NCBI RefSeq assembly: GCF_004028275.1
Contig: NZ_CP035033.1
Coordinates: 2,166,501-2,230,500, forward strand
Origin: Hydrogenovibrio thermophilus
GTDB lineage: Bacteria > Pseudomonadota > Gammaproteobacteria > Thiomicrospirales > Thiomicrospiraceae
Reading direction: 5' to 3'
DNA: 64,000 nucleotides
The translations under genes were made by a program, and so were the position numbers. Numbering within the stretch: position 1 is the stretch's first letter; each line of letters starts with the position of its first letter. Under the pieces are notes generated by a model. The model saw only the letters and a list, made by a program, of their open reading frames with translations, was not told the DNA's origin and ran no database searches. Of this stretch, positions 13,788-29,659 are shown piece after piece.

Positions 13788-13885
13788 TTACACAGCCTTT
13801 CTTATCCATCAATAACGCATTCGGCCATACTCTCCCCTAGCCGGGCTATAAAAAATTACTTAGTTTTTTAGTGGATTGGATTGGG

Positions 13886-13891
13886 TATAAT
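13886..13891 (+). promoter_or_regulatory. -10 box upstream of the XRE-cupin gene
   Basis: TATAAT at 13886-13891 implies a transcript start near 13898. This rules out translation from the longer in-frame start at 13871 and supports the ATG at 13925. No good -35 hexamer is seen at 17 bp. Confidence 0.55.
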
Positions 13892-13924
13892 ATTGTCATT
13901 ATCTCTAAGAAAAAGACTGATTCA

Positions 13925-14521
13925 ATGAGCGCAAAAGACAACCAATCCCTCGACCTCTACATCGGAAAAATCATCAATAATGTTCGGAAGAAACAAGGCC
14001 TGACCATCGCGGAAATTTCCGAACAGTCCGGTGTCAGCCGAGGGATGTTGAGCAAAATTGAAAACGGACAGGTGTCCCCAAGTCTGGACTCGTTGTTGAA
14101 AATCTCACGCGCGCTCGGCGTGCCGATTTCGGCGTTCTTCAAGGAATTCGATTCGGAAGAAGGCGGCGCTCAATTGGTCAAAGCGGAAGAAGCGCTTGAG
14201 GTGGTTCGTCGCGGCACCAAAGTCGGGCACACTTATCACCTGCTGGCTTACGACTCGGGCCCTCACAAAACCTTCGAGCCTTTCTTGATTTCCTTGGATA
14301 ACAAAAGCGAGATCTTCCCGACCTTTGCGCACGAAGGTTCGGTGTTCATGTATCTGTTGGAAGGTGAAATGATCTATCGTCATGGCAAACAGACCTATCA
14401 CATGAAGCCGGGCGACTCCTTGACCTACAACGCACAAATCTCCCACGGACCGGAAGAATTGCTGCAAGTGCCGATTAAATTTCTCAACATCATCTACTAC
14501 AACCAGAGTGCACCAGAATAA
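13925..14521 (+). CDS. XRE-family regulator with C-terminal cupin domain
   Basis: A 198-residue transcription factor. Residues ~12-66 form a helix-turn-helix of the Cro/cI type (LTIAEISEQSGVSRGMLSKIENG). A linker leads into a cupin barrel (about residues 105-190) with the usual FAHEGSVFMYLLEGEM and MKPGDSLTYNAQISHGP motifs for a small-molecule or metal ligand. Such proteins often control amine, amino-acid or other catabolic genes. It lies upstream of glnK-amtB and 14 kb from the methylamine operon, so a nitrogen-source regulator is a reasonable guess but not shown. The start codon was chosen from the promoter position. Confidence 0.88.
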   Translation: MSAKDNQSLDLYIGKIINNVRKKQGLTIAEISEQSGVSRGMLSKIENGQVSPSLDSLLKISRALGVPISAFFKEFDSEEGGAQLVKAEEALEVVRRGTKVGHTYHLLAYDSGPHKTFEPFLISLDNKSEIFPTFAHEGSVFMYLLEGEMIYRHGKQTYHMKPGDSLTYNAQISHGPEELLQVPIKFLNIIYYNQSAPE

Positions 14522-14635: not shown

Positions 14636-14676
14636 TTTCTTCCTCGCAGGTATTTGTTCCATACCTAAAAAAACTT

Positions 14677-14719
14677 AACCAAATTACCTTTGCTATCAAA
14701 GGTAATTTGGTTCTTTTTA
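14677..14719 (+). terminator. Strong terminator-like hairpin before glnK
   Basis: A perfect 16-bp stem (arms 14677-14692 and 14697-14712, 4-nt loop) is followed by CTTTTTAG. It stands only 25 bp before glnK and 155 bp after the XRE gene stop. It may end the XRE transcript or attenuate glnK. Confidence 0.8.
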
Positions 14720-14744
14720 GTTTCTCGTTCAGGGGAGGTCGCAT

Positions 14745-15083
14745 ATGAAGTTAGTGAAAGCGATCATTAATCCTTACAAGTTGAATGATGTCCGTGACGC
14801 GCTTTCCGATTTAGGAAGCTACGGACTGACCACAACGGAAGTGAAGGGTTATGGTCGTCAAAAAGGACAAAAGGAAATCTATCGCGGTGCAGAATACGAA
14901 ATCTCTTATGTACCCAAGATTATGATTGAATTGGCGATTTCGGACGATGCGCTCGACAGTGTCGTGGCTTGCATATCCGAAACAGCCAGAACCGGGAAAG
15001 TGGGAGATGGCAAAATTTTTGTCATGCCAATCGAAGAAGTCATCAGAGTTCGTACCGCTGAAACGGGAGATGACGCTTTATAA
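14745..15083 (+). CDS. glnK: Nitrogen regulatory PII protein
   Basis: A 112-residue PII signal protein. It shows KLVKAIINPYKLNDVRDAL, the T-loop GRQKGQKEIYRGAEYEISYVPK with Tyr51 (the uridylylation site), and the C-terminal signature GKVGDGKIFVMPIEEVIRVRT. PII trimers sense 2-oxoglutarate and ATP/ADP and block AmtB. The amtB gene begins 24 bp downstream, the classical glnK-amtB pair. GGGGAGG precedes the ATG. The leader holds a strong hairpin. Confidence 0.96.
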   Translation: MKLVKAIINPYKLNDVRDALSDLGSYGLTTTEVKGYGRQKGQKEIYRGAEYEISYVPKIMIELAISDDALDSVVACISETARTGKVGDGKIFVMPIEEVIRVRTAETGDDAL

Positions 15084-15107
15084 AAGAAGTGAACATGGAG
15101 TAATTTT

Positions 15108-16361
15108 ATGGAAGGAAATTTTTTACAACTATCCTATGCACTGGATACGTTTTACTTTTTGATGAGCGCCGTGCTCGTCATGTGGATGGCCGCCGGGTTT
15201 GCCATGCTGGAAGCCGGTCTGGTTCGCAGCAAGAACACGGTTGAAATCTTAACCAAAAACGCACTGCTTTACAGTGTTGCCTGTACTATGTACCTGATTG
15301 TCGGGTATAACTTCATGTACCCTGGCGACCCAATCAGCGCTTACCTACCTAACATCTCGTTCCTGTTGGGCGCGGACAATGCGGTTGACGCCGTAGTCGC
15401 TGGCGGAGACGGTGCACCTTACTACTCAGGTATGTCTGACTTCATCTTCCAGGCGGTTTTCGCGGCTGCGACGATGTCGATTGTTTCCGGTGCGATTGCT
15501 GAGCGAATGAAGCTTTGGCCTTTCTTGGTGTTCGCGGTTGTCATGACGGCGTTCATCTACCCTATGGAAGGTTACTGGAAATGGGGCGGCGGCTGGTTGG
15601 ATCAGCTAGGCTTCCAAGACTTCGCCGGTTCCGTTGTTGTTCACATGGCTGGTGCCGCTGCCGCTTTGGCTGCTGTAATCCTGGTCGGACCACGTCTTGG
15701 TAAATACGGTCCTAACGGTGAAGTCCGTGCGATTCCAGGTGCGAACCTTCCGATGGCAACCCTAGGTATGTTCATTCTTTGGATGGGCTGGTTCGGGTTC
15801 AACGGTGGTTCTGAGCTGATGATTTCCAATGTTGACGAAGCGAACGCCGTTGCTGCGATCTTCGTAAACACGAATGCGGCTGCTGCCGGTGGTATGATTG
15901 CCGCTGCATTGTTGGGACGCTTCATGTTCGGTAAGACCGACTTGACCATGGCGATCAACGGTGCCTTGGCCGGTCTGGTATCCATCACGGCTGAACCGCT
16001 AGCGCCAACACCTGGTTTGGCTCTGATCATCGGTATGGTCGGTGGTATCATCGTGGTACTTTCCGTCATCGGTATGGACAAAATGAAGCTTGACGATCCA
16101 GTCGGTGCGATCTCCGTTCACGGTACCGCCGGTATCTGGGGTATCTTCGCGGTATTGTTCAGCAACTCCGACGCGACTTTCATGGGTCAGTTGATCGGTA
16201 CGGTTGCAACATTCGCTTGGATGTTCATCGCTTCGTTCATTGTTCTTTACATCATCAAGAAAGCGGTTGGCCTACGCCCAACTGAAGAACAAGAACAAGA
16301 AGGCTTGGACGTTGAAGAATGTGGTATGGAAGCTTACCCAGAATTCAACCAGAAAAACTAA
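15108..16361 (+). CDS. amtB: Ammonium transporter AmtB
   Basis: A 417-residue inner-membrane channel with about 11 membrane helices. It has VVHMAGAAAALAA and ISVHGTAGIWG, which carry the two pore histidines, and the WMAAGFAMLEAGLVR Amt signature near the N terminus. It also conducts methylammonium in studied homologues. No cleavable signal is apparent; the first helix starts around residue 12. It is co-transcribed with glnK and closed by a terminator. Ammonium or methylammonium import fits the methylamine operon nearby. Confidence 0.97.
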   Translation: MEGNFLQLSYALDTFYFLMSAVLVMWMAAGFAMLEAGLVRSKNTVEILTKNALLYSVACTMYLIVGYNFMYPGDPISAYLPNISFLLGADNAVDAVVAGGDGAPYYSGMSDFIFQAVFAAATMSIVSGAIAERMKLWPFLVFAVVMTAFIYPMEGYWKWGGGWLDQLGFQDFAGSVVVHMAGAAAALAAVILVGPRLGKYGPNGEVRAIPGANLPMATLGMFILWMGWFGFNGGSELMISNVDEANAVAAIFVNTNAAAAGGMIAAALLGRFMFGKTDLTMAINGALAGLVSITAEPLAPTPGLALIIGMVGGIIVVLSVIGMDKMKLDDPVGAISVHGTAGIWGIFAVLFSNSDATFMGQLIGTVATFAWMFIASFIVLYIIKKAVGLRPTEEQEQEGLDVEECGMEAYPEFNQKN

Positions 16362-16385
16362 GTCCGACTTAGATGTAAAGAAACG

Positions 16386-16416
16386 AAAAACCGCCGTTCT
16401 CATACGGCGGTTTTTT
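16386..16416 (+). terminator. Terminator of glnK-amtB
   Basis: AACCGCCG-ttctcata-CGGCGGTT stem with flanking A-run and T-run, 25 bp after the amtB stop. Confidence 0.9.
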
Positions 16417-16483
16417 CATTTTTGAAAGCCCTTAATAAAAACGGGATTTTTTATTAAGTGTTTTTAAAAGGTAACTACAATAG

Positions 16484-16936
16484 ATGTCAACGCAGATCAG
16501 ACAAGCCTCTTTTCAGGACATTCCCGAAATGGTCGTCCTACTCAAATCCTTATTCGCGCTGGAAGCCGATTTCGATTTCGATATCGACAAGCAAGTCAAA
16601 GGCATCGGTTTCATCATCGAGAACAAGGATTGCTGTTATCTGGTGGCCGAATCGAATAACCACGTCATCGGTATCTGCAGTGCACAATGGGTGTATTCCA
16701 CTTCGGAAGGCGCCAAGTCCGCCTGGATCGAAGATCTGATCGTCCACCCGACCCATCAAGGCAAAGGGATCGGCAAACTGTTATTGAACGCGATACTGGA
16801 CTGGTGTGAACAGCAGGGCTGCACGAGAGCACAACTGGTGTATGACAAAGACAACATCAACGCCATTGCGTTTTATGAGAAAGCCGGCTGGCAAATGACG
16901 AATCTCGGCGTTTTGAAGATTCACCCGGCCGAGTAA
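16484..16936 (+). CDS. GNAT-family N-acetyltransferase
   Basis: A 150-residue acetyl-CoA-dependent transferase. The GNAT core motif A reads IEDLIVHPTHQGKGIGKLLL (about residues 86-105), where the H-x-G-K-G-I-G-K pyrophosphate loop binds CoA. Motif B (NAIAFYEKAGWQ) follows at the C-terminal end. The substrate (amine, amino acid or protein N terminus) cannot be told. It starts 68 bp after the amtB terminator, so it is likely transcribed on its own. The upstream gap is A/T-rich. Confidence 0.88.
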   Translation: MSTQIRQASFQDIPEMVVLLKSLFALEADFDFDIDKQVKGIGFIIENKDCCYLVAESNNHVIGICSAQWVYSTSEGAKSAWIEDLIVHPTHQGKGIGKLLLNAILDWCEQQGCTRAQLVYDKDNINAIAFYEKAGWQMTNLGVLKIHPAE

Positions 16937-17002
16937 CAAGAAACGCCCGAGGAATCTCGAGCGCCATGTATCATAAATTTAAAGAAGTTCCGACAGAACG
17001 CC

Positions 17003-17695
17003 TCAAGCGTCCCGAACCAGATAGTCCAGCAAATCGAACAATACCGGCCGCACCGTCAGCATTTTAACTTCCGGTTCGGCCAACATAACGCCGGGTTGCT
17101 GAACATAGTCCCCTTCCGTCATCTGCTCGCCGATTTCATCAACCCACTCTTGAATAATCGTTGGCGTCACTTCCGGATGACATTGCAAACCGATGATGCG
17201 TTCACCAAGCTGGAACCCTTGATTCGGACAGACTTTACTTTCAATCAGACGCTTGGCCCCTTCCGGCAACGCAAAGGTTTCACCGTGCCAATTGAAAATC
17301 TCCAACGCGTCCGGAAAACGGAAAACCGTCGCGTCGTCGCTCACATTCGAGACGGTATGCCAACCGATTTCCACTTCCGGGTTATCGGTGACTTTCGCAC
17401 CCAGTGCCGTGGCAATCAACTGCCCACCCAGGCAAATGCCCAATAACGGAATATCGGCTTCAATCACATCGCGAATATACTGCTTCTCCGCCACCAACCA
17501 AGGGTAATTGACCTCGTCATTCACACTCATCGGACCGCCTAATGCAATCACCAGGTCCGTGGATGCCAAATCAGGATAACGCACGTTGGGTTCATACAAA
17601 ACCACGGTTTCGACCGAGGCCGATTTCGCCTGCAACCATACCTCGATTTGCCCGAGCCGTTCAAACGGCGCGTGCTTTAACACCACCACATTCAT
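17003..17695 (-). CDS. Class I glutamine-amidotransferase-like protein
   Basis: A 230-residue soluble protein of the free-standing GMP-synthase-type amidotransferase family. GICLGGQLIA (about residues 81-90) contains the nucleophilic cysteine, NWHGETF follows, and QCHPEVTP holds the catalytic histidine-glutamate pair. Relatives hydrolyse gamma-glutamyl compounds or donate ammonia to unknown acceptors. It lies downstream of the methylamine operon on the same strand, but the folD terminator separates them. A function in gamma-glutamyl-methylamide or gamma-glutamyl-amine turnover would be attractive but is speculation. Confidence 0.85.
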   Translation of the reverse strand: MNVVVLKHAPFERLGQIEVWLQAKSASVETVVLYEPNVRYPDLASTDLVIALGGPMSVNDEVNYPWLVAEKQYIRDVIEADIPLLGICLGGQLIATALGAKVTDNPEVEIGWHTVSNVSDDATVFRFPDALEIFNWHGETFALPEGAKRLIESKVCPNQGFQLGERIIGLQCHPEVTPTIIQEWVDEIGEQMTEGDYVQQPGVMLAEPEVKMLTVRPVLFDLLDYLVRDA

Positions 17696-17765
17696 GCCCC
17701 ATCTCCTATCAAGTCATTGCCTGTTTATCAGACACATTTAATCAAAAAAGCCTAACCGCCTAAAA

Positions 17766-17809
17766 CAAAAAAAGCCGTGCGCCACACTCATGAAATGGCT
17801 AACACGGCA
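17766..17809 (-). terminator. Terminator at the end of the methylamine operon
   Basis: On the minus strand, GCCGTG pairs with CACGGC around a 23-nt loop, followed by TTTTTTGTTTT, 42 bp past the folD stop. Confidence 0.8.
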
Positions 17810-17850
17810 AACGAAACGAAAAATACAAACTTATGAAGAAACCATCATTT

Positions 17851-18705
17851 TTAAGACAGTTGATGTCGCTCGCAAGCGATCAAGGTGTTTTCCAGCAGGG
17901 TCGCAATGGTCATCGGCCCCACACCACCCGGTACTGGCGTGACATGGGCCGCCACGTCCATCGCCGCCTTATCGACATCGCCGGTCAGGGAACCGTCTTC
18001 CAAACGGTTGATACCCACATCGATGACGATGCAGCCCGGTTTCAACCAATCCGCCGGAATAAAGCCCGGCTTACCGACCGCCACCACCAGGATGTCGGCC
18101 ATGGCGACGTGGGTTTTCAAGTCCGCCGTGAAGCGGTGACAAACCGTGGTTGTCGCACCGGCCAACAACAGCTCCAGCGACATCGGGCGGCCCACGATAT
18201 TGGACGCGCCCACAATCACCGCATGCTTGCCTTTGGCGGACAAACCGTAATGGTTCAACAGCGTCATGCAACCGTATGGCGTACAGGGACGCAAGGTCGG
18301 CATCCGCACCGTCAAACGGCCGATGTTATACGGGTGGAAACCATCCACATCCTTATCGGGATGGATGTTCTCAATCACGGTTTCGGCATCGATGTGTTCC
18401 GGTAACGGCAACTGAACCAGAATCCCGTCAATCGAACTGTCGTCGTTCAATTGACGAATCAAATCCAATAGCTCGGTTTGCGTGGTCGAAGACGGCCAAT
18501 GCCAGGACTTGGACACGAAGCCCACTTCCTCACACGCCCGTTTCTTGTTGTTCACGTAAACCGACGACGCCGGATCGTCACCAATCAGAATAACGGCCAG
18601 GCCTGGCGCTCTCAGGCCCTGCGACAAACGCATATCGACCTGATCTTTGATTTTGTCGCGAACCGCTTTTGAGACGGCCTTACCGTCAATAATCTTTGCG
18701 CTCAT
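17851..18705 (-). CDS. folD: Methylene-THF dehydrogenase/cyclohydrolase
   Basis: A 284-residue bifunctional enzyme that converts 5,10-methylene-THF to 10-formyl-THF via methenyl-THF with NADP. It has the active-site region [13 protein letters not shown] (catalytic Lys), [10 protein letters not shown] and the dinucleotide fold [11 protein letters not shown]. It ends with [16 protein letters not shown]. It lies 10 bp after mgsC, the last gene of the methylamine operon, which fits processing of the methylene-THF made by the N-methylglutamate dehydrogenase. Length is typical. Confidence 0.96.
18597..18606. repeat. CCAGGCCTGG palindrome, coding
   Basis: Inside folD, read as P-G-L on the minus strand. 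Flanks are cg and cg. Confidence 0.9.
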
Positions 18706-18715
18706 GGCTCAACCT

Positions 18716-20038
18716 TTAATAGTTTGATTTACCCGGAATCCAGCCTGTTCCTGCCAAAGGCACACCGGCCATCGCCGCCGCTTCGACATTCAAAGCCACC
18801 AGATCTTCCGGTTCCAGGTTGTGCAAGTGGGACTTACCACAGGCACGCGCCAACGTTTGCGCTTCCATCGTCAGCACTTGCAGATAGTTGGCCAAACGCT
18901 TACCGGCTTCTTCCGGATTCAGACGCGCCGCCAATTCGGTGTCTTGCGTGGAAATCCCCGCTGGGCATTTACCTTCATGGTAATCGTCGTAGAAACCGGC
19001 CGCTGAACCGATTTTTTGGTACTCGGCATCCCATTTCGGGTGGTTACAGCCCAACGCCACCAATGCAGCCGTTCCGATGGCGACAGCGTCCGCGCCCAAC
19101 GCCATGGCTTTCGCCACATCGGCGCCACTGCGAATCCCGCCGGAAACAATCAACTGAACCTTACGGTGCATGTCCATTTCCTGCAAGGCGCGAACCGCCT
19201 GTGGAATCGCCGCCATGGTCGGAATCCCGACGTGCTCGATAAAGACGTCTTGCGTCGCCGCCGTACCGCCTTGCATACCATCGACAACGATGACATCCGC
19301 ACCGGCTTTCACCGCCAACTTCACATCATAGTAAGTACGCGTTGCACCCACTTTGATGTAAATCGGTACTTGCCAATCGGTGATTTCACGCAATTCCTGA
19401 ATCTTGATGGCCAAATCGTCCGGTCCTGTCCAGTCCGGGTGACGACAGGCACTGCGTTGGTCGATGCCTTTCGGCAGGTTACGCATCTGCGCGACACGGT
19501 CGGTGATTTTTTGCCCCAACAGCATCCCGCCGCCGCCCGGCTTGGCACCTTGCCCCAAAACCACTTCAATGGCGTCGGCCTTACGCAAATCATCCGGGTT
19601 CATCCCGTAACGAGACGGCAAGTATTGATAAACCAGCGTTTTGGACGTTTTACGCTCTTCCGGCGTCATCCCGCCGTCGCCGGTGGTGGTACTGGTGCCC
19701 ACCATGTTGGCACCGCGTCCCAGAGCTTCTTTGGCATTGGCGGACAAGGCACCGAAACTCATCCCGGCAATGGTCACCGGAATATCCAACTTAATCGGGT
19801 TCTTGGCGAAACGCGTGCCCAAGGTCACGTCGGTACCGCATTTCTCACGGTAGCCTTCCAACGGATAACGCGACATACTGGCGCCCAGGAACAATAAATC
19901 ATCGAAATGCGGGACCTTACGCTTCGCACCGAAACCGCGAATGTCGTAGATGCCCGTTTCCGCCGCACGTTGAATTTCATGAATCACGTCACGGCTAAAA
20001 GTTGCGGATTCGATTAATCCAGGTTGTTTCATCGTCAT
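18716..20038 (-). CDS. mgsC: N-methylglutamate synthase subunit C (FMN/glutamate-synthase-like)
   Basis: A 440-residue protein homologous to the FMN-binding central domain of glutamate synthase. Landmarks are TIAGMSFGALSANAKEAL, GDGGMTPEER, KPGGGGMLLGQKI (flavin loop), VDGMQGGTAATQ and SGGIRSGADVAKAMALGADAVAIG for phosphate binding. Cysteines near CNHPKWD and KCPAG resemble the 3Fe-4S ligands of glutamate synthase. With MgsA and MgsB it converts methylamine units on gamma-glutamylmethylamide to N-methylglutamate in methylotrophs. It lies 29 bp after mgsB. Confidence 0.9.
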   Translation of the reverse strand: MTMKQPGLIESATFSRDVIHEIQRAAETGIYDIRGFGAKRKVPHFDDLLFLGASMSRYPLEGYREKCGTDVTLGTRFAKNPIKLDIPVTIAGMSFGALSANAKEALGRGANMVGTSTTTGDGGMTPEERKTSKTLVYQYLPSRYGMNPDDLRKADAIEVVLGQGAKPGGGGMLLGQKITDRVAQMRNLPKGIDQRSACRHPDWTGPDDLAIKIQELREITDWQVPIYIKVGATRTYYDVKLAVKAGADVIVVDGMQGGTAATQDVFIEHVGIPTMAAIPQAVRALQEMDMHRKVQLIVSGGIRSGADVAKAMALGADAVAIGTAALVALGCNHPKWDAEYQKIGSAAGFYDDYHEGKCPAGISTQDTELAARLNPEEAGKRLANYLQVLTMEAQTLARACGKSHLHNLEPEDLVALNVEAAAMAGVPLAGTGWIPGKSNY

Positions 20039-20067
20039 ATCTGACTCCTTGCAATTAGGTTAATGCC

Positions 20068-20745
20068 TTAATACGCCGAGGCGTTATCGACTTTAAAGGT
20101 ATACAGCTGGCGGGCTGAACCGTAACGGGTAAAGCTATGCGGGTCCTCATCACTACCGGCTTCTTTCAACAATGCGGACAGTTCCTCGATGTGCTCCGGA
20201 CGCATTTCTTTCTGAATGCAATCCGCGCCCAGGGACTCGACCTTACCTTTGACATACAAATGGGCTTCGTACAAGGAATCCCCCAACGCCTCACCGGCGT
20301 CACCACAGACAACCAAACAACCCGACTGCCCCATAAAGGCACTCATGTGACCGACCGAGCCTTTCACAACGATGTTGACGCCTTTCATGGAAATACCGCA
20401 ACGGGCGGCGGCATCGCCATCCACCACCAACAGGCCGCCATGTGCCGTGGCTGCGGCCGACTGGCTGGCATTGCCTTTGACGTGCACCTTACCGGACATC
20501 ATATTTTCCGCCACGCCTTGACCGGCGTTACCGTTAACGATGATTTCCGCTTCTTTGTTCATGCCCGCGCAATAGTAACCGGCATGACCGTTCAAAGTAA
20601 TCTTCGCAGGCTGGTCCATCCCGACCGCCAGGTTGTGGTCACCACTGATGCCGTTCACCACCACTTCCGTGGTTTTGTCTTTCGGCAAATCATGCAAGGC
20701 TTGATTCACCTCTCTGACCGTTTGTGTTTTCAAATCAAATTCCAT
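20068..20745 (-). CDS. mgsB: N-methylglutamate synthase subunit B (GXGXG domain)
   Basis: A 225-residue protein built of repeated G-x-x-G beta-helix turns (NGHAGYYCAGMNKEA, NGNAGQGVAENM, DGDAAARCGISM, GDAGEALGDSLYE), the right-handed helix found at the C terminus of glutamate synthase. It has no catalytic site of its own and is a structural partner for MgsA and MgsC. The separated subunit organisation (A, B, C) is characteristic of N-methylglutamate synthase rather than ordinary GltB. It sits between mgsA and mgsC. Confidence 0.9.
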   Translation of the reverse strand: MEFDLKTQTVREVNQALHDLPKDKTTEVVVNGISGDHNLAVGMDQPAKITLNGHAGYYCAGMNKEAEIIVNGNAGQGVAENMMSGKVHVKGNASQSAAATAHGGLLVVDGDAAARCGISMKGVNIVVKGSVGHMSAFMGQSGCLVVCGDAGEALGDSLYEAHLYVKGKVESLGADCIQKEMRPEHIEELSALLKEAGSDEDPHSFTRYGSARQLYTFKVDNASAY

Positions 20746-20780
20746 GGCAATTCCTTTTTCTTATTCGTCTTGTTTCTCAA

Positions 20781-21680
20781 TCAGCCTTTACCCCAGAAAT
20801 ACACTTTTCCTGGATCGGGTTCCCACAATTTAGCGTTCTCGATGCCCGGCAAGGAGGACAACGCATGGTACTCAGACGCCATGGCCACGTAATCGTCCGT
20901 TTCCGCCATGACCGCCGGCTTACACGCGATTGGGTCACGCACCACCGCGAAGCCGTCTTTGGTTCCGACCGTAAAGGTGAAAAAACCGTCCAAATCTTCA
21001 ATGGCCCCTTCCAACGCTTCTTTTACGCTGGCGCCTTCACGCAAACGCCAGGTCAGGTAACCGGCCGCCACTTCGGAATCGTTTTCGGTTTCAAACTGGA
21101 TACCTTTGTGCTCCAGCTCTTCACGCAGGCGGTTATGGTTCGACAAGGAACCGTTGTGCACCAGGCACAAATCCATCCCGGTCGAAAACGGATGCGAACC
21201 TTCCATCGTCACGCCGCTTTCCGTCGCCATACGGGTATGACCCACAATATGCGACCCTTTCATGCCCGCTAGGTTGAAACGTTCAGCGATGTTTTCTGGC
21301 AGTCCGACTTCTTTCAGAATCTCGATGGAACGCCCCACGCTCATGATGCGGATAGTCGAATCGAATTCAGCGATGGTTTCACGTACCGGCGCTTCTTCGG
21401 CTTTCATTTTCAGCACCGCCGCATTGGCGTTGTGCATCACGGAAACCGGCGTGCTATAGGTTTCTTCAAGCGCTTCGGCCAACATATGCCAAGGATAATG
21501 CTCGTCTTCATGTTGCAGCGTCAGCTTAATCATATCGTCGGACACTTCGTCCCCGTAAATCGCAAACCCGGCACTGTCCGGTCCGCGCCCTGTCATGGCA
21601 ATCAGCATCGGCTCGAACAGCTTGCCGAGTTGACTCTCAAGTGCGCTGTTTTTCAAATATAACCCTACAATTCCACACAT
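20781..21680 (-). CDS. mgsA: N-methylglutamate synthase subunit A (class II amidotransferase)
   Basis: A 299-residue glutaminase-type domain starting MCGIVGLY, where Cys2 becomes the N-terminal nucleophile after Met removal. GHTRMATES and HPFSTGMDLCLVHNGSLSN are the conserved arginine and asparagine-glycine segments. In the pathway it releases methylamine from gamma-glutamylmethylamide for use by the synthase barrel. It begins 12 bp after gmaS. The length fits stand-alone MgsA. It could act on glutamine too, but the neighbours argue for methylamine metabolism. Confidence 0.9.
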   Translation of the reverse strand: MCGIVGLYLKNSALESQLGKLFEPMLIAMTGRGPDSAGFAIYGDEVSDDMIKLTLQHEDEHYPWHMLAEALEETYSTPVSVMHNANAAVLKMKAEEAPVRETIAEFDSTIRIMSVGRSIEILKEVGLPENIAERFNLAGMKGSHIVGHTRMATESGVTMEGSHPFSTGMDLCLVHNGSLSNHNRLREELEHKGIQFETENDSEVAAGYLTWRLREGASVKEALEGAIEDLDGFFTFTVGTKDGFAVVRDPIACKPAVMAETDDYVAMASEYHALSSLPGIENAKLWEPDPGKVYFWGKG

Positions 21681-21692
21681 GAGCCTTCTCCT

Positions 21693-23027
21693 TTAAAAAT
21701 ACTCTGCATAACGGTTTAACTCCCAATCGGACACATGGCGCTGGTATTCAACCCATTCCATGCGTTTGATATCAATAAATTCTTTCATGAAGTTCTCGCC
21801 GAACTGTTCGACGAACAACGAATCTTCTTCCAACTCGTCCAAGGCTTCCGACAAGGATTGCGGCAGGGTATCAATCCCTCTTGCCTTGATTTCATCCAAC
21901 GACAAGCCGTAGTGGTTGATATTTTGCGGCTCGCCCGGGTTCAATTTCTTCGCCACTCCGTCCAAGCCGGCGGCAATGATGGCGGCGGTCACCAGATACG
22001 GGTTGCACCCGGTATCCGGCAAACGGAACTCCAAACGCCCATAAGGCACGCGAACCATCGCCGAACGGTTGTTATCGCCGTAGCTGATAAACGCCGGCGC
22101 CCAGGTCGCGCCGGACAGAGAACGCCCGACGACCAGACGCTTATAGGAGTTCACCGTCGGCGCGGCAAACGCACATAACGCTTTCGCGTGATGCATCAAT
22201 CCGCCCAAGAAGTCATAAGCCAGTTCCGACAATCCCATGTTGTTTTTGTCGGAATCGTCTTTGAACAGGTTATTTCCCTGGTCATCGGTAATCGACAAGT
22301 GGAAATGGAACCCGTTCCCGGTGCGGTTGGCATTCGGCTTCGGCATAAAAGAGCAGATCATGCCCATTTCATTGGCGATTTCGCTGCCGGCCATGCGCAC
22401 AAAGGTGATGCGGTCTGCCGAAGTTTTCGCGTCGGAATAGGTGTAGTTGATTTCGAACTGACCGTTGGCGTCTTCGTGGTCAATCTGATAAACATCGAAT
22501 CCGACCTGCTGCAGGGAATCGACGAATTTTTCCAAAAATGCGCGGGAACGCGACAAGCCTTTATAGTCGTAACACGGTTTGTCCAAGGTATCGCTTTCGT
22601 CATACGGCATCAAATGCCCGTCTTCATTGCGTTTCAGCAAGCTGAATTCTGGCTCGATCCCGGTGTTCAAGGTCCAGCCTTTTTCGCTCAAACGCTCGAT
22701 TTGTTTCAACATGATGTGGCGCGTATCGTATTCATAAGGCTTATCATGCACGTGACCGGTACAGGCCACACGCGCATACCCCGGTTGCCAAGGGACGATA
22801 CTCAAAGTGCTTAAATCCGCTTTGGCCATATAATCGCCGTCGTGCGGTTCCATGCCCAAGCCCCAGACGGCGAACCCGGCAAACCCGGCACCGTCTTCCA
22901 CAATCGACTCCAGGCAACTGGCCGGAACCGACTTGGTTTTGGCGACACCGTGGATATCGACAAACTGGGCCAGAATGTATTTAATCTGGTTGTCTTCAAG
23001 GAATTTTTTGGCTTCTTCAATCGTCAT
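21693..23027 (-). CDS. gmaS: Gamma-glutamylmethylamide synthetase (type III glutamine-synthetase-like)
   Basis: A 444-residue ligase of the glutamine synthetase fold. [14 protein letters not shown] and [10 protein letters not shown] lie in the N-terminal beta-grasp. [23 protein letters not shown] and NGFHFHLSI carry the metal and glutamate ligands; [13 protein letters not shown] and EFRLPD close the ATP site. This form joins glutamate and methylamine with ATP to give gamma-glutamylmethylamide. The location between mgd and mgs genes sets it apart from a normal GlnA, and no adenylylation motif is evident. Its start overlaps the mgdD stop by 11 bp. Confidence 0.9.
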
Positions 23028-23505
23028 CTTGGCACTCCATTTTTAAAAAAGGGGATTTTTGTATTTGCTGGCTCAAGGTTTCCTGGAAGTAGTGTCCAAA
23101 AGTCGGATCACACCCAAGAATGAGCGGTGCATCGGCTTCTGGAACCAACAGCCAGGCCGAGACACCCGCAATCGAGACCATCAGGAAATCACCCGGCTGA
23201 CTTTGACGGAAGTCGTAAATACACACTTCCGACATCAAAGCTTTCCAGTTGCCCGACAGTTCAAAAATCGCATCCCCTCTTTGGAATGCATATTGGTTGT
23301 TTTCGGATACAGCTTCCAACGGTTGTTCAACGCAGACATAGAGTTCTTCTTCACCCAATTTGGCGACGAATTGGTCTTTCGCCACCGATTGATATTGAAA
23401 AACGTCCAGGCCTGACGCCCCGAAGGAAGCCAAAACATCATTAAGGCCTTCCCCGCGAAAATGCATTAGAGTCGGCATTGTCTTCGGTGTAATCTGTAAA
23501 CTCAT
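23017..23505 (-). CDS. mgdD: N-methylglutamate dehydrogenase subunit D (SoxG-like)
   Basis: A 162-residue protein resembling sarcosine oxidase gamma, the small subunit with an aminomethyltransferase-type fold. It overlaps mgdC by 4 bp and gmaS by 11 bp. Similarity to SoxG is modest: helical N terminus, then [16 protein letters not shown] and the [17 protein letters not shown] region. No catalytic residues can be assigned; it is thought to complete the heterotetramer. The identity rests partly on gene order, which is conserved in methylamine utilisers. Confidence 0.82.
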
Positions 23506-26387
23506 GCCGCGTCTCCTTCTGCCGTTTCGTCCGGTTTTTGCATTAACCCTTCCGGATCATAGAAAGGGGTTTTAACCACTTTTGCCTTCACAAATCGACC
23601 GTCGGTCAATTTGATGCTCAGCACATTATTCGCCATTGAATAATCGGTTGAAATCATCGCCAAACCGATGACCTTTTTCAGCGTGGCACTGCGACCGATA
23701 CTGGTCACACGCCCAATCATCTCGTCGGCTTCAATCACAAGATTCGACTCCAGCGGCTGGTCGCTCGGGTTGTCAGACAACAATTCGAACCCAACCAGGG
23801 TACGCATCTTGGTTTCTTTCAATCTCACCAAACTCGGTTTGCCGAGGAAATACGGTTTTTTGAAATGCACCGCCCATGGCATATTGGCCTCGAACGGGTT
23901 GGTCAAGCCATCGGTATCTTGGCCGACAATGATGTGGCCTTTCTCCAAACGAAGCAGTCGTTGGGCTTCCACACCGAACGGCTTGATACCATAGGCTTGA
24001 CCGGCACTCATCAGCGCCTTCCAAATGGTCAGTGCCGATTGCGAATCGGTATGGATTTCATACCCCAATTCGCCCACGAAACCGACCCGAATCAAGGTGA
24101 CATCCAACCCCAGCATTTTGCCTTGGCGCATCGCCAGATACGGGAAGGCTTCCGTCGATAAGTCAATATCACAAAGCTGTTCCAGAATCTTGCGGCTGTT
24201 CGGACCGGCCAGGTTCATGGCACCAATCTGCCCAGTGCGGTTCAGTACCGTGACCTTCAAGCCCCACTCGATGACTTTTTTCTGAATCAAGCGGTAGGCC
24301 GAATCCGAAGTCGATGTCGTGGTGGTCACATAAAAATGTTCGTCGGAATATCGAATCGCGACACCGTCGTCGATGACCACACCGGAATCGTCCACCATCA
24401 AGGCATAACGACTGGCGCCAATCGCCATATTAGACATGCGCATGGTGTACAGTCGGTCCATCAACTCCCCGGCATCCCGTCCGAAAACATCCAGCTTGCC
24501 CAGCGTCGAAACGTCAATCAACCCGACGTAATTTCGTACCGCTTGCACTTCAGCCTGAATCGAGGCTTCACGGGTCATTTCGGTTGGATAATATTCCGGT
24601 CTCAACCAGTTACCGGCTTCCATAAAACAGGCGTTTTCTTCTTCGTGAAACGGATGGATCGGCGTCAAACGCTCCGGACGGAAACGCATCCCACCCAAGT
24701 GCGAAACCGGTGTTGGGTGGAACATTGGTCTCGCGGTCGTGGAACCGGTTTGGTCGATGGTTTTCCCCGTCAGCTTCGCCAACATGCGGATGCCATTCAT
24801 ATTGCTGTGTTTGCCTTGGCTTGGCCCCATACCGATGGTTGAGAAACGTTTCATCAACTCGATATTGTCGAACCCTTGCGCAATCGCCCCTTTCAAATCC
24901 TTGATCTGAATATCTTCATCGAAGTCGACAAACTCTTTCCCTTTCGGATGCGCCCAAATCGGGTACGGATGCGAATGCGCTTCTGTGGCACGGTAATCTT
25001 CAACTTCCGGCAATGCCTGGCCTTTCATATATAAAGCCGCCGCCAGCCCGGCTTGTTCGCCGTCCTTAATCCGGTTTTCAATGTCGTAAACACCGTTGAT
25101 GCGGCCGCACGCGAACACACCTTCCGGCAAGGTCACCGGCAGCAACTGCTCCACGGTGGCGTTGTAACCGAATTTAGCGCCCGCCTGATACAAAGGTGCG
25201 CCGGCCGGTGCCCAGCCCACGCTCATCAACAAGCCGTCACACAACAAACGTTTTTCCATGCCGTTGGTTTTGAAAATCACGCCTTCCAGGTGTTTGCGCC
25301 CCAGCGCTTCGACCATTTCCGCGTTTTCATACACCACCATGCCGGCCTGTTTGGCTTGCTCGACCCACTCGCCTTCGGTGCGCCCGGTATCGATAATCGC
25401 CTTCACCACCAAACCGTTCTGATGCAAGTCGAGCGCCGCACGATAGCCTTCGGCATTAGCGGTCAGCACCACCGATTCGGCACAAGGGGCGACGGCATAA
25501 CGCGTCATCAAACGTTGCGCGGCGGAAGCATTCATCACCCCCGGTAAATCGTTGTTACGAAACACCGCCGGTTGCTCAAACACGCCGGTGGCGACCACCA
25601 CCGATTGCGCCGACAACTTGATCAATCCCTCTTCGGTATTGACCGACAGCCAGTGGTCGCCGTAATACCCGGCCACATAGGCGGATGTAATCACATGGAT
25701 ATTCGGTGTGGATTCGATGGTTTCTTTCAAGTAATGGCGGTTCAATGTCTGCGCACTTTCATTCACAAACTGATAATCCAACGAACCGCCGATGTGCGGA
25801 TTTTCGTCAATCAAACAGACATCCACGCCTTGCTTGGCCGCTTGAATGGCCGCCGCCATCCCCGAAGGCCCGGCGCCGATGACCGCGACATCACAATGAC
25901 GATAACGCTTTGGCTTACGTTCTTCAGTCCAACTTGTATCCACTTTGCCCAGGCCTGCCATCTCGCGAATCAATCGCTCCCATTTCGGGAACAGAAATTT
26001 CGGTGAATAAAAGGCTTTATAGTAGAAACCGACCGGCAGAAATTTTCCGATTAATTCCACCAAAGCGCCCTTGTCATTCGCCAGAGAGCCAAAGGTATTC
26101 ACGGCGGTCAGTGACATGCCGTTTTCCGGCGTCACCACATCGCCGCGGACATTCGGTCTGTCCTCGGCCTGAAACAAGGCATTCACATCGTGGTTGGCCA
26201 AACTCATCACACCGCGACGACGGTGATATTTAAAGCTGCGGCCCAGCACTTTGGTGCCTTCGGCCCACAAAGCGCTAGTGATGACATCACCTTTGAAACC
26301 CTTGACCGGCTGCCCTTCGAATTCGAAGGTCACCGCCGCTTTGCGATCAATCCATTCCAATGGCTGTGGCGCGAGTCTAAGCTTCAT
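23502..26387 (-). CDS. mgdC: N-methylglutamate dehydrogenase subunit C (SoxA-like)
   Basis: A 961-residue flavoprotein. The N-terminal ~110 residues are a ferredoxin-like (Fer2_4-type) domain without the Cys ligands, so no cluster is expected. A dinucleotide-binding module follows (VAVIGAGPSGMAAAIQAAK), then a C-terminal aminomethyltransferase (GcvT-like) domain from about residue 560, which should hand the oxidised methyl to tetrahydrofolate. The ATG at 26387 was preferred over the upstream codon; it overlaps mgdB by 11 bp. It is the large alpha subunit of the complex that oxidises N-methylglutamate. Confidence 0.93.
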   Translation of the reverse strand: MKLRLAPQPLEWIDRKAAVTFEFEGQPVKGFKGDVITSALWAEGTKVLGRSFKYHRRRGVMSLANHDVNALFQAEDRPNVRGDVVTPENGMSLTAVNTFGSLANDKGALVELIGKFLPVGFYYKAFYSPKFLFPKWERLIREMAGLGKVDTSWTEERKPKRYRHCDVAVIGAGPSGMAAAIQAAKQGVDVCLIDENPHIGGSLDYQFVNESAQTLNRHYLKETIESTPNIHVITSAYVAGYYGDHWLSVNTEEGLIKLSAQSVVVATGVFEQPAVFRNNDLPGVMNASAAQRLMTRYAVAPCAESVVLTANAEGYRAALDLHQNGLVVKAIIDTGRTEGEWVEQAKQAGMVVYENAEMVEALGRKHLEGVIFKTNGMEKRLLCDGLLMSVGWAPAGAPLYQAGAKFGYNATVEQLLPVTLPEGVFACGRINGVYDIENRIKDGEQAGLAAALYMKGQALPEVEDYRATEAHSHPYPIWAHPKGKEFVDFDEDIQIKDLKGAIAQGFDNIELMKRFSTIGMGPSQGKHSNMNGIRMLAKLTGKTIDQTGSTTARPMFHPTPVSHLGGMRFRPERLTPIHPFHEEENACFMEAGNWLRPEYYPTEMTREASIQAEVQAVRNYVGLIDVSTLGKLDVFGRDAGELMDRLYTMRMSNMAIGASRYALMVDDSGVVIDDGVAIRYSDEHFYVTTTTSTSDSAYRLIQKKVIEWGLKVTVLNRTGQIGAMNLAGPNSRKILEQLCDIDLSTEAFPYLAMRQGKMLGLDVTLIRVGFVGELGYEIHTDSQSALTIWKALMSAGQAYGIKPFGVEAQRLLRLEKGHIIVGQDTDGLTNPFEANMPWAVHFKKPYFLGKPSLVRLKETKMRTLVGFELLSDNPSDQPLESNLVIEADEMIGRVTSIGRSATLKKVIGLAMISTDYSMANNVLSIKLTDGRFVKAKVVKTPFYDPEGLMQKPDETAEGDAA

Positions 26388-26646
26388 GTGCAATTCCTTT
26401 ATTCGCAAACTCGACCTGAGTGATTCGATCGGTCAACGTATTTCGTTCAAATAAAAACCAGATTCCCGTCGGACGGTGATACCACCATTCGGTCTGGGTT
26501 TGCGGCGCGCCGTTATGGTAGAAAACATAATCCGCCCATTCTTTTTCTGACACCGTTTCCTGATCCGGTTCGCGCTCCAGCCGCCCACCGTAGGTGAACT
26601 CGCTCAACGCTCTTCTTCCCAAACTTGGACACGTAACAAATTTCAT
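26377..26646 (-). CDS. mgdB: N-methylglutamate dehydrogenase subunit B (SoxD-like)
   Basis: An 89-residue small subunit resembling sarcosine oxidase delta: SEFTYGGRLEREPD, EWADYVFYHNGAPQTQTEWWYHRPTGIWFLFERNTLTDRI. Classical SoxD has a zinc-binding CPYC near its start; here only CPSLG remains, so the zinc site is not complete. The change seems usual for the methylglutamate branch but I cannot confirm that here. Its gene ends 11 bp inside mgdC. Confidence 0.88.
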   Translation of the reverse strand: MKFVTCPSLGRRALSEFTYGGRLEREPDQETVSEKEWADYVFYHNGAPQTQTEWWYHRPTGIWFLFERNTLTDRITQVEFANKGIAHEA

Positions 26647-26655
26647 ACTGTCTCC

Positions 26656-27897
26656 TTAGTGACCGACCGACGCCGCGCCTTTCTCACCCACCAACTCAAA
26701 CTTGGCGTAGCGATCCAGACTGAACGGCTTGATCAATTCGTGTGTCGAATCGGTGGCCACGGTATGCGCCATGGTTTTTCCGCTGACCGGTGTCGCTTTA
26801 AAGCCCCAGGTGCCCCAACCGGCATCCAGATAAAACCCTTCCACATCGGTTTTACCCATAATCGGTGCGAAATCCGGAGTGATATCACTCATCCCGGCCC
26901 ACTGACGCATGATTTTCAAGCGACTGGTGAACGGGAACAAATCCATCATCTGGTCGGTCAAACCTTCCACAAAATCCAGCGTCGACCGAGTTGAATGCAA
27001 TTCCGCCGGATCCACCGACGCCCCCATGACCAACTCACCACGCGACGACTGACTGACGTAAACGTGCAAACTGCCGGATACCACAATCGTGTCCATAAAC
27101 GGTTTCACCGGTTCGGTCACGCAAGCCTGCAACGGGAAAATCTCAATCGGGGTTTTAATGTCCAGCATTTCGGTGATGCGTGGCGTAGAGCCTGCCACCA
27201 TCGAAATCACTTTCTTGGCTTCGACAAACCCTTTGTCCGTTTCCACGCCGACAACCTTGCCGCCTTTGGTTTTAATATCCGTCACCTGGGTTTTCTGATG
27301 AATTTCCACCCCACGCATTTGCGCGCCTCGGGCATACCCCCAAGCCACCGCATCATGACGCGCCACCGAACCCGGTGCATGGTACAAAGCGCCCATCACC
27401 GGATGCTGACCGTTACAGGACATGTCCATGTAAGGCACTTCTTTTTTGATGGTGTCCACATCGACGACTTCACTGTCGATGCCGTGATGTTTATTCACCT
27501 CTGCACGCCATCTCATGGTGCGCATCGCACTATCGGTGTGCGCCAACGTAAAATGGCCTCGCGTCGAATAGAAGATGTTCAAATCGAAATCGTCGCTCAA
27601 ATCCTCGAACAATTTCAGGCTCTCGTCGTAGAACTTAACCCCTTCAGACGTCAGGTAATTCGAGCGTACGATGGTGGTATTACGGCCGGTGTTTCCGCCG
27701 CCGATATACCCCTGCTCCAAAACCGCCACATTGGTGATACCGTGTTCTTTAGCCAGGTAATAAGCACAGGCCATTCCATGACCGCCGCCGCCGATAATCA
27801 CGACGTCATAAGCCTTTTTCAGCGGCTTTTCTTCCGGGAAAAAACGCGGTTCGTCTTCCGATTTTTTCCAGGCGTATTTCAGTAATCTGAGTGGCAT
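26656..27897 (-). CDS. mgdA: N-methylglutamate dehydrogenase subunit A (SoxB-like)
   Basis: A 413-residue FAD-dependent amine-oxidising subunit. The Rossmann motif VVIIGGGGHGMACAYYLA (about residues 32-49) starts the FAD domain, and GYIGGGNTGRN and GWGTWGFKATPVSG near the C terminus are typical of sarcosine oxidase beta. It oxidises N-methylglutamate to glutamate with transfer of the methyl to folate by the other subunits. It lies 9 bp after purU and before mgdB. The protein is cytoplasmic with no signal peptide. Confidence 0.93.
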   Translation of the reverse strand: MPLRLLKYAWKKSEDEPRFFPEEKPLKKAYDVVIIGGGGHGMACAYYLAKEHGITNVAVLEQGYIGGGNTGRNTTIVRSNYLTSEGVKFYDESLKLFEDLSDDFDLNIFYSTRGHFTLAHTDSAMRTMRWRAEVNKHHGIDSEVVDVDTIKKEVPYMDMSCNGQHPVMGALYHAPGSVARHDAVAWGYARGAQMRGVEIHQKTQVTDIKTKGGKVVGVETDKGFVEAKKVISMVAGSTPRITEMLDIKTPIEIFPLQACVTEPVKPFMDTIVVSGSLHVYVSQSSRGELVMGASVDPAELHSTRSTLDFVEGLTDQMMDLFPFTSRLKIMRQWAGMSDITPDFAPIMGKTDVEGFYLDAGWGTWGFKATPVSGKTMAHTVATDSTHELIKPFSLDRYAKFELVGEKGAASVGH

Positions 27898-27906
27898 TCA
27901 AGTCTC

Positions 27907-28758
27907 CTAAGCGAACACAACGGTTTTATTGCCGTAAACCAACACTCGGTCTTGCAAGTGGTACTTCAAGCCGCGTGCCAATACATTCTTTTCAACATCT
28001 TTCCCGAGCACCACCATCTCTTCGGCGGACTCGCTGTGCGACACGCGCGCCACGTCCTGCTCGATAATCGGTCCGGCATCCAGATCTTCGGTGACATAAT
28101 GACAAGTCGCCCCAATCAGCTTCACCCCGCGCTCGTACGCTTGATGATAAGGCTTGGCCCCGATAAACGACGGCAGGAAACTGTGGTGGATATTGATAAT
28201 CTGGCCTGGGTATTTTTGGCATAACGCCGGCGGAATGATTTGCATGTAACGCGCCAACACGATGGTATCCGCTTGATAGTGATCCACCCAGTTAACGACC
28301 TCGTCAAACACCTGCGGCTTATTCTCAGGCGTTACCGGAATATGCAGATACGGAATGCCGTACCATTCGACCAAGCCTTTCATATCCAAATGGTTGGAAA
28401 TCACGCACGGAATCTCGCAGTCGATTTCGCCACTGCTCCAGCGATACAACAAATCCGCCAGACAGTGATCCTGCTTACTCACCATAATCAACACTCGTTT
28501 TTTAAGGCTTGAGGCCGTCAACTGCCACTTCATGTCGAATTCGTCGGCGATTTTGGAAAAGGCTTCGCGAAACGCCGTTTCATCCATTTGGATGTCGGTG
28601 ATTTCGTTACGCATAAAAAACTGACCGGTGTGTCTATCCGCGTGATGATTCGCCTCGGCGATCATGCAATCGTTTTCCGCCAAAAAAGTCGACACTTTGG
28701 CGACGATTCCCACACGATCCGGGCATGAGATGGTTAAAACATATGAATTTTGCTGCAT
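27907..28758 (-). CDS. purU: Formyltetrahydrofolate deformylase
   Basis: A 283-residue enzyme that hydrolyses 10-formyl-THF to formate and THF. Residues ~1-85 form an ACT-type domain (YVLTISCPDRVGIVAKVS). A formyltransferase fold follows with VISNHLD, INIHHSFLPSF and GATCHYVTEDLDAGPIIEQ, containing the Asn-His-Asp catalytic set. As first gene of the methylamine operon it would recycle THF and excrete the methyl carbon as formate. This suits methylamine used mainly as nitrogen source. AGGGG precedes the ATG. Confidence 0.95.
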   Translation of the reverse strand: MQQNSYVLTISCPDRVGIVAKVSTFLAENDCMIAEANHHADRHTGQFFMRNEITDIQMDETAFREAFSKIADEFDMKWQLTASSLKKRVLIMVSKQDHCLADLLYRWSSGEIDCEIPCVISNHLDMKGLVEWYGIPYLHIPVTPENKPQVFDEVVNWVDHYQADTIVLARYMQIIPPALCQKYPGQIINIHHSFLPSFIGAKPYHQAYERGVKLIGATCHYVTEDLDAGPIIEQDVARVSHSESAEEMVVLGKDVEKNVLARGLKYHLQDRVLVYGNKTVVFA

Positions 28759-29199
28759 TATTTTCCCCTCGAGAAACTTTGATTCATATATTAAGACTTC
28801 TTCATTTTCATTTCAAGAACTTTTTGTTCATTTTATGAAAATATTTTTAACGTAACGAAATGCCGGACTGAACCCAAGATTAAGGAGAAGGAAATGAATA
28901 GCGAGACAGCCCGGTTAGACAGGACTTGAAAGAAAAAGCGTCTAAAAAACCAAATGATGATGGCTTATATAAGATCGGTTAAAACGAAAATGAAACACCC
29001 AAAAAGGTATACCGACCGTTTGACGATCAAAATATCGACAGTCTCGTTATATAGACAGTTATATAAATGTATAAGAAAGTGGATATAAAAGGGTGGCGCT
29101 TTATAGAAAGGCCCTTAGCAGACTGTACGTCTTCTTTATAAAAGGACAATAAAATGCTTTTGAAAAATGAATCCGGGCTGGACGCTGAAATGCGGGCAC
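28759..29199. other. A/T-rich intergenic stretch, about 440 bp
   Basis: Between purU and the cold-shock terminator I see only the purU promoter and very short frames. A ribosome-site-like AAGGAGAAGGA at 28880-28892 stands before an 11-codon frame starting at 28893. No RNA gene is recognised. Confidence 0.5.
28788..28816 (-). promoter_or_regulatory. Promoter of the purU-mgd-gmaS-mgs-folD operon
   Basis: On the minus strand, TTGAAA (28816-28811) and TAATAT (28793-28788) are separated by 17 bp, giving a sigma-70-type promoter with a leader of about 20-25 nt before purU. No sigma-54 motif is visible. Confidence 0.65.
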
Positions 29200-29233
29200 A
29201 AAAAAACCCTCGTATTGAGAACCAATAAAAGGG
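29200..29233 (-). terminator. Terminator of the cold-shock gene
   Basis: On the minus strand after the stop, CCCT and AGGG flank an inner ATTG/CAAT hairpin, followed by seven T residues. Confidence 0.7.
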
Positions 29234-29254
29234 CTTAAGAATGTAAAACAGAGA

Positions 29255-29464
29255 TTATACGGCGGTAACGTTCTCTGCTTGTGGCCCTTTCTGACCTTGC
29301 GTCACTTCCATGGTAACCGATTGACCTTCGGCCAATGTCTTGCGGCCGGTTCCGTTAATGGCTGAGAAGTGAACGAACACATCCTTTCCGCCCTCTTGCT
29401 CGATGAAGCCGAAGCCTTTCTCATCGTTGAACCACTTAACTTTGCCTGTAACTAAATCTGACAT
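29255..29464 (-). CDS. Cold-shock-like nucleic-acid-binding protein
   Basis: A 69-residue CspA-family protein with the RNA-binding motifs KGFGFIEQ (RNP1) and VFVHFSAI (RNP2), the five-stranded cold-shock barrel. It is likely an RNA chaperone; which member of the csp set it is cannot be told. A long A/T-rich upstream region (29465-29659) may include the extended 5' leader typical of cold-shock genes. GGAAAAAGC precedes the ATG. Confidence 0.93.
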
Positions 29465-29659
29465 GCTTTTTCCTTTCTAACAAATAAAACAACTCCCAAA
29501 CCCTGACTGAAATTTAAAAAATTTAAACTTGTCAAAAACTTAGGAAATTTCATTATAAGGAAAATCCATAGAAATTCTTATTAATTTTTCGTATTTCCGA
29601 AAAAAGTCAAAAGTGTCGTAAAAAAGCCACAGAACAACAGCTTAACCGCTGAATCCCCT

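Follow-up and report, generated by a model that had tools for sequence, protein, structure and literature searches.

The 64,000-nucleotide stretch of the Hydrogenovibrio thermophilus genome analysed here (the window, G000:C1:2166501-2230500; G000 is the host genome, 2,612,894 bases on one contig) carries a ten-gene operon, purU-mgdABCD-gmaS-mgsABC-folD, which quite probably gives a sulphur-oxidising autotroph the standard N-methylglutamate (NMG) pathway, used chiefly to obtain nitrogen from methylamine. Ten minus-strand open reading frames fill positions 17851-28758. In the order of transcription they are separated by 9 bp (purU/mgdA) and 9 bp (mgdA/mgdB), overlap by 32 (mgdB/mgdC), 4 (mgdC/mgdD) and 11 bp (mgdD/gmaS), and are separated again by 12 (gmaS/mgsA), 35 (mgsA/mgsB), 29 (mgsB/mgsC) and 10 bp (mgsC/folD). 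A preliminary description of this DNA had reported a complete single-strand operon with gaps or overlaps of at most 35 bp, and its coordinates, gene order and gene names are borne out by profiles and position.

Gene identities were taken from Pfam and NCBIfam profile searches, with further comparison against Protein Data Bank (PDB) sequences. Nine of the ten operon proteins have profile support, while mgdD, which had no match in the Pfam or NCBIfam searches, is assigned by its position. The N-methylglutamate synthase triad of GATase, GXGXG and Glu_synthase domains is complete in the window, and N-methylglutamate dehydrogenase is represented by mgdA, mgdB and mgdC, identified by Pfam together with the folate domain, and by mgdD from position alone. 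The NCBIfam models of SoxA, SoxB and SoxD match the Mgd proteins below the sarcosine oxidase cut-offs, as one would expect for paralogues; with the solved sarcosine oxidase alpha subunit, MgdC scored 369 bits. For mgdC, an in-frame ATG at 26387 is a likelier start than the TTG at 26408 and would cut the overlap with mgdB to 11 bp. MgdB (26377-26646) has the residues CPSLG near its start, a position that we take to be the site of the second zinc-binding cysteine in sarcosine oxidase delta, so that zinc has possibly been lost.

According to the chemistry in the literature, GmaS would couple methylamine to glutamate, MgsABC would then form N-methylglutamate, and MgdABCD would hand the methyl carbon to tetrahydrofolate (THF) as methylene-THF, with the nitrogen kept as glutamate or ammonium. 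Uptake of methylammonium would be the task of Amt, and trimethylamine (TMA) and dimethylamine (DMA) probably enter by way of Tmm, Tdm and Dmm, whose genes are found at another place in the genome. FolD would convert methylene-THF to 10-formyl-THF, from which PurU would release formate and free THF. Part of the methylene-THF could feed biosynthesis, and surplus formate is probably excreted, since neither a formate dehydrogenase nor a formate-THF ligase (Fhs) was found in the host.

The operon was compared with a family set of 62 genomes, 12 of which are less than 90% complete or more than 5% contaminated. TIGR03105 gave 31 matches above cut-off in 21 of them, 15 lying in NMG operons and 16 being a second GlnT type; a sixteenth operon genome, G041, is represented by purU, mgdA and mgdB at the end of a contig. 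Fifteen of the 16 operon genomes, the window included, keep the order purU-mgdABCD-gmaS-mgsABC intact, and folD closes the operon in 13 of these 15 (it is absent there in G046 and G047). As the order is kept in relatives, it is not due to chance. The closest GmaS relatives among the genome contigs searched, from Thiomicrorhabdus, Hydrogenovibrio and Thiomicrospira (L001-L008), are 83-93% identical; T. chilensis DSM 12352 (L008) is one of the strains with the operon. A wider set comprised 80 gmaS-bearing loci with relatives of the window GmaS; linkage was counted by one fixed locus criterion, with some loci shortened by contig ends. Among the 80, purU occurs in 51, folD in 45 and both in 44, and all ten genes stand in exactly this order in six Marinobacterium loci. 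The arrangement has precedents and is ordinary for the NMG pathway.

The two genes at the ends of the operon are distinct from the housekeeping genes of the same name. The host holds two purU (TIGR00655) and two folD (PF02882), the second copies lying at G000 2434904 and 880674, and its operon PurU and FolD are 62% and 57% identical to their housekeeping counterparts. Within one genome the two kinds share 58-64% (PurU, 16 genomes) and 55-60% (FolD, 13 genomes), whereas copies of one kind across genomes have a mean identity of 81-86%. All 15 family genomes with an operon gmaS have the operon purU plus a separate housekeeping purU. In the trees (49 PurU rows, 42 FolD rows) the housekeeping copies of both proteins form one group that shuts out the operon copies (support 100/99), and the operon FolD copies likewise form one group (100/99). 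In the PurU tree the operon copies need two changes, with other NMG and the housekeeping copies branching from among them, and long branches meet in this tree. The operon purU and folD thus look like copies retained specifically for the NMG pathway, in agreement with the earlier proposal that PurU and FolD dispose of the methyl carbon. Some pairs suggest transfer of the operon between genera and others do not: PurU identity between G013 and G042 is 90 for the operon copies versus 78 for the housekeeping copies, while between G009 and G023 it is 71 versus 79.

The best PDB match of the window GmaS was a glutamate-methylamine ligase (9qur, 680 bits), followed by 7cql from the RhGmaS study (328 bits). 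The residues named for the methylamine pocket and catalysis in the part of that study available to us, Tyr147, Gln175, Asp177, Glu179, Glu186, Asn188, Lys30', Trp300 and Ala48', are all kept in the window protein in the 7cql alignment, whose numbering assumes a 20-residue tag offset derived from the match of residue names. Alanine is retained at the position of Asp50 in glutamine synthetases. The host encodes a second GlnT-type protein (G000 2085610), which was considered as part of a second methylamine operon and rejected: it is 43% identical to the operon GmaS, carries Ser and Asp at the positions of Gln175 and Asn188, and is accompanied by neither mgd nor mgs genes within its 20-kb stretch. 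Its locus (L081:4335-15865, G000 2077-2089 kb) contains creatininase-like, polyamine ABC transport, class III aminotransferase and kinase-like neighbours, and probably serves a gamma-glutamyl route for another amine. The second type, counted as TIGR03105 matches outside the operon, occurs in 16 of the 62 family genomes and is commoner in those with the operon (11 of 16) than in those without (5 of 46); no mgd or mgs genes were found nearby in the eight of its 16 loci that were examined.

On the folD side of the operon, the recurrent order in the family is XRE-cupin regulator, glnK, amtB, GNAT, GATase and then the operon. The proximity of glnK and amtB noted earlier proved to be conserved, as the pair is linked in 14 of the 16 operon genomes including the window (exceptions G013 and G041). 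The regulator is also linked in 14, the exceptions being G026, where the stretch ends too soon, and G041, a fragment. In G013 no glnK was found at the operon locus, and purU is preceded by a tdm gene and a divergent Amt. Of the 80 loci, 70 have an XRE-cupin homologue (divergent and at most 700 bp upstream of gmaS in 54), 46 have an Amt of some kind and 13 have PII. XRE-cupin, PII and Amt genes can be counted as conserved members of the module. The linked AmtB and PII may nevertheless serve ordinary ammonium scavenging, with the linkage reflecting shared nitrogen control, a possible though doubtful explanation that is compatible with a nitrogen role of the operon. Amt proteins generally transport ammonium, and the host carries four more Amt genes, one of them 69% identical to the linked AmtB. 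Against this, the Amt proteins in the 46 loci are of unlike kinds, and the divergent Amt of G013 lies on the opposite side of the operon. The linked GATase-like protein (17003-17695) has an apparent Cys-His-Glu set and is present in most family loci, missing from G009 and G046 among the operon genomes and found also in L027 and L047 of the 80; it might act on gamma-glutamyl amides.

The region upstream of purU contains a conserved promoter stretch, recognisable in all 15 sufficiently long purU upstream regions of the 16 genomes (G024 is cut by a contig end). A AAAGTTCTT-like repeat lies at the -35 element, its TTCTT being invariant in all 15 regions, and a AAAGTTTCTT-like repeat follows the -10 element; the 11 regions measured by script gave a spacing of 41-43 bp. 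Altered forms of the first repeat occur in G023, G028 and G047, and of the second in G031, G041, G047 and G049. In a stricter scan of 17 sequences, paired repeats occurred only at purU (in the window and in L105). A promoter scan of 13500-29700 gave 8 sites, fewer than the shuffle mean of 15.0, so it is conservation alone that argues for the purU promoter. Such a pair of operator-like sites flanking a promoter, roughly four helical turns from each other, points to a repressor, and the XRE-cupin protein, which probably controls the operon through these repeats, would be the protein that binds the candidate operator. Of two sigma-54 patterns, the stricter one had no match in front of purU, glnK, the GATase gene or the regulator, and the loose one, GG-N10-GC, had three matches in the 500 bp before purU, two near the regulator and none before glnK.

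Table 1. Positions of the operon genes, the promoter region and the linked genes in the window.
Feature	Position	Strand	Description
Conserved promoter and candidate operator	28771..28826	-	TTGAAA-17-TAATAT at 28816-28788; two AAAGTT(T)CTT-like repeats ~42 bp apart
purU	27907..28758	-	10-formyl-THF deformylase, first gene; TIGR00655 373 bits (cut-off 286); dedicated paralogue
mgdA	26656..27897	-	SoxB-type FAD subunit of N-methylglutamate dehydrogenase; DAO PF01266; TIGR01373 497 bits, below cut-off 529
mgdB	26377..26646	-	SoxD-type subunit; PF04267 78 bits, above cut-off
mgdC	23502..26408	-	SoxA-type, folate-binding GCV_T domain; SO_alpha_A3, Fer2_4, GCV_T, GCV_T_C
mgdD	23017..23505	-	SoxG position; orthologues occupy the same slot in relatives
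gmaS	21693..23027	-	gamma-glutamylmethylamide synthetase; TIGR03105 691 bits (cut-off 470)
mgsA	20781..21680	-	glutamine amidotransferase class II domain; GATase_6/GATase_7
mgsB	20068..20745	-	GXGXG domain, PF01493
mgsC	18716..20038	-	glutamate synthase domain, PF01645 326 bits
folD	17851..18705	-	methylene-THF dehydrogenase/cyclohydrolase, last gene; NF008058 470 bits (cut-off 355); dedicated paralogue
Class I glutamine amidotransferase-like gene	17003..17695	-	PF00117; 155 bp after folD
amtB	15108..16361	+	ammonium transporter 'marine subtype'; TIGR03644 662 bits (cut-off 514); proposed (methyl)ammonium permease
glnK, PII protein	14745..15083	+	PF00543 101 bits
XRE-cupin (PuuR-like) regulator	13871..14521	+	HTH_3 and Cupin_2; proposed pathway regulator

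The host groups with Hydrogenovibrio and Thiomicrorhabdus, which are sulphur-oxidising autotrophs, and an autotrophic lifestyle, raised as a condition in the preliminary description, is supported from sequence by this kinship and by RuBisCO. The large subunit, the only Calvin-cycle gene searched, gave three matches in the host (467, 461 and 409 bits) and is present in 59 of the 62 family genomes. Relatives are called obligate chemolithoautotrophs in print, namely a related Thiomicrorhabdus in the part of its description available to us and T. chilensis by a cited title.

To follow the fate of the methyl carbon, profile searches were run genome-wide on the family set and on 14 control genomes. 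No methylamine or methanol dehydrogenase, no formaldehyde oxidation by Fae and tetrahydromethanopterin, and no formate dehydrogenase was found in the host, a search that the preliminary description had proposed for the methylamine, methanol and formate dehydrogenases. MauB is absent from the host and positive in one of the 62 family genomes. The pyrroloquinoline quinone (PQQ)-dependent methanol/alcohol dehydrogenase was above cut-off in none of the 62, which gave weak, partial matches only (46 bits in the host, cut-off 480), and Fae was found in none, the host included, with two of the 14 controls positive, both archaeal. The formate dehydrogenase alpha subunit likewise gave no match above cut-off in the 62 genomes, as opposed to five of the 14 controls; matches of 450-540 bits in genomes other than the host were judged by the cut-off alone and not identified singly. 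Three host matches to this model were rejected: one of 509 bits is an assimilatory nitrate reductase with nirB, cysG and nitrate transport genes as its neighbours, and the other two are two pieces of NuoG. The NAD-type formate dehydrogenase was above cut-off in none of the 62 genomes, and Fhs, with no match in the host, was above cut-off in 24. A MauB-like match of 89.5 bits (cut-off 21) lies at C22:45221-46105 of the relative G046, itself one of the operon genomes.

Several points weigh against a purely nitrogen-directed pathway that ends in formate. MauB, the PQQ dehydrogenase and the NAD-type formate dehydrogenase were above cut-off in none of the 14 controls either. Fhs occurs in 11 of the 16 operon genomes versus 13 of the 46 without the operon (p 0.007), the operon genomes lacking it being G000, G009, G010, G026 and G028; that it is commoner with the operon argues against formate as a strict dead end for the family as a whole. 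For the host, the finding of no onward formate route refers to formate dehydrogenase and Fhs, which were searched, while PurT, glutathione-dependent formaldehyde oxidation, the ribulose monophosphate pathway and the serine cycle were not searched for. The Mgd and FolD steps give reducing equivalents, which could still make some contribution of energy. Finally, both GlnT-type synthetases of the host fall in one NCBIfam family, so the specificity of GmaS for methylamine stays a prediction.

Extending the energy argument, methylamine may also be a source of energy and carbon, with the methyl group fully oxidised to CO2 and refixed by RuBisCO. Autotrophic methylotrophy occurs in some Paracoccus, RuBisCO is present in the host, and reducing equivalents would be gained at the Mgd and FolD steps. 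This appears unlikely, as no formate dehydrogenase was found in the host, the alpha subunit staying below cut-off throughout the family, and as a related strain, in the part of its description available to us, used no tested organic compound, formate included, for carbon or energy. That the operon mainly supplies one-carbon units, with methylene-THF for serine, thymidylate and methionine and PurU as an overflow, is very unlikely: no Fhs was found in the host, which would leave serine or glycine as the other source of these units, and MgdC has a folate-binding domain, but a dedicated deformylase heads the operon and the Amt/PII linkage points to nitrogen supply and carbon disposal. The use of methylamine mainly as a nitrogen source, as first put forward in the preliminary description, is well supported from the sequence and is the best of the readings; MauB, Fae, a full-length PQQ methanol dehydrogenase, formate dehydrogenase and Fhs were all searched for and not found in the host.

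Genes for the use of higher methylated amines lie elsewhere in the host genome. A cluster for TMA, its N-oxide and DMA (L107:7558-16655 and L118:559-3138, G000 1966-1978 kb) encodes Tdm (1061 bits, just under the cut-off of 1100) and Tmm (851 bits, cut-off 675), together with DmmA, a Fer2-bearing DmmB-like protein, an HODM_asu-like (DmmC-like) protein, a sensor kinase, a NarL-type regulator and a PAS protein, suggesting a full route from TMA to ammonium in the host. The Tdm/Tmm cluster adjoins a gene for a divergent Amt (G000 1966623). Among the matches listed, which reach down to ~1e-25 and thus far below the score of this protein, the divergent Amt is found in seven of the 16 operon genomes (G000, G010, G013, G024, G026, G049 and G050; 82-100% identical) and in none of the 46 without the operon (p 2.3e-5). 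By direct comparison, the Amt of G041 is of another kind. Tdm stands beside the divergent Amt in all seven genomes and Tmm in six (not in the G013 stretch), with the full Dmm set read in the host only. Probably some of the operon genomes, fewer than half, can start from TMA. In G050 (L109:1-7366) the tdm, tmm and dmmA homologues are in several pieces and different frames, a sign of possible decay of the cluster or of a faulty sequence. Two further groups of genes were seen around the host cluster. Next to dmm (L118:4051-7358) lie genes for an HMG-CoA reductase, an FMN_dh-family protein, perhaps a type 2 isopentenyl diphosphate isomerase, and an HMG-CoA synthase; such mevalonate-type genes are unusual for a gammaproteobacterium. 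Beside the divergent Amt (L107:4425-7141), the host and G010, alone among the compared loci, have a gamma-glutamyltranspeptidase and a DUF815 ATPase.

Taken further, sulphur-oxidising chemolithoautotrophs might use TMA, DMA and methylamine as nitrogen sources and release the last methyl group as formate, which they cannot oxidise; uptake would go through a dedicated Amt under the control of a PII protein of its own, and the operon would be under an XRE-cupin repressor. We regard this as a tentative proposal with somewhat less than an even chance of being correct. Research on methylated amines has mostly treated them as a food of heterotrophs and methylotrophs. If the proposal is true, primary producers of sulphidic marine habitats would join the methylated-amine cycle by nitrogen uptake and formate release, and would supply formate to their neighbours in sulphidic sediments and vents. 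In the host the roles separate, as CO2 provides the carbon and sulphur the energy, so that a nitrogen role of methylamine and a release of formate would be directly measurable. Given this context, the lack of a formate outlet among the routes searched and the presence of TMA genes, the host is a clean test case, and the conserved XRE-cupin, PII and Amt genes offer a testable module of uptake and control. The earlier statement that methylamine use is newly extended beyond methylotrophs has to be withdrawn, since methylamine as a nitrogen source for non-methylotrophs is already described in the literature, as far as the parts at hand go. We found no report of the NMG pathway in chemolithoautotrophs in the literature searched, the coverage of which excluded the comparative genome study of the group.

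The pathway and its companion genes are of a known kind. In the six Marinobacterium loci (L010, L013, L014, L016, L019 and L020) the gene order is identical to that of the host and the proteins are 31-89% identical, with amtB following folD in two of the six (L013 and L016); to our knowledge, these hosts are not known as autotrophs. The NMG clusters of marine Rhodobacteraceae are alike in combining gmaS, mgsABC and mgdABCD with folD and purU, and amt and XRE genes are repeatedly found nearby (PMC7574528); the part of this paper available to us makes no mention of a linked PII gene. Genes for TMA and DMA are part of the cluster in the Rhodobacteraceae; in the host the TMA genes stand at a separate genomic site. 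The Rhodobacteraceae are heterotrophs, whereas the host has a ten-gene run in a sulphur-oxidising autotroph in which no formate dehydrogenase was found (PMC7574528, in part). In Ruegeria pomeroyi, gmaS-mgs and mgd form separate operons, according to the available part of PMC13390433. For SAR11, where glnT, glxBCD and soxBDAG make up the pathway, the accessible text describes a use of one-carbon compounds without net assimilation, in this respect similar to the host, but in a heterotroph with formate dehydrogenase and Fhs (PMC3160333). The folD-purU loci of Paracoccus aminophilus come close to the proposed fate of the methyl group, as FolD and PurU were proposed there to convert methylene-THF to formate, although in a methylotroph with formate dehydrogenases and the serine cycle (PMC4543880, in the portion consulted).

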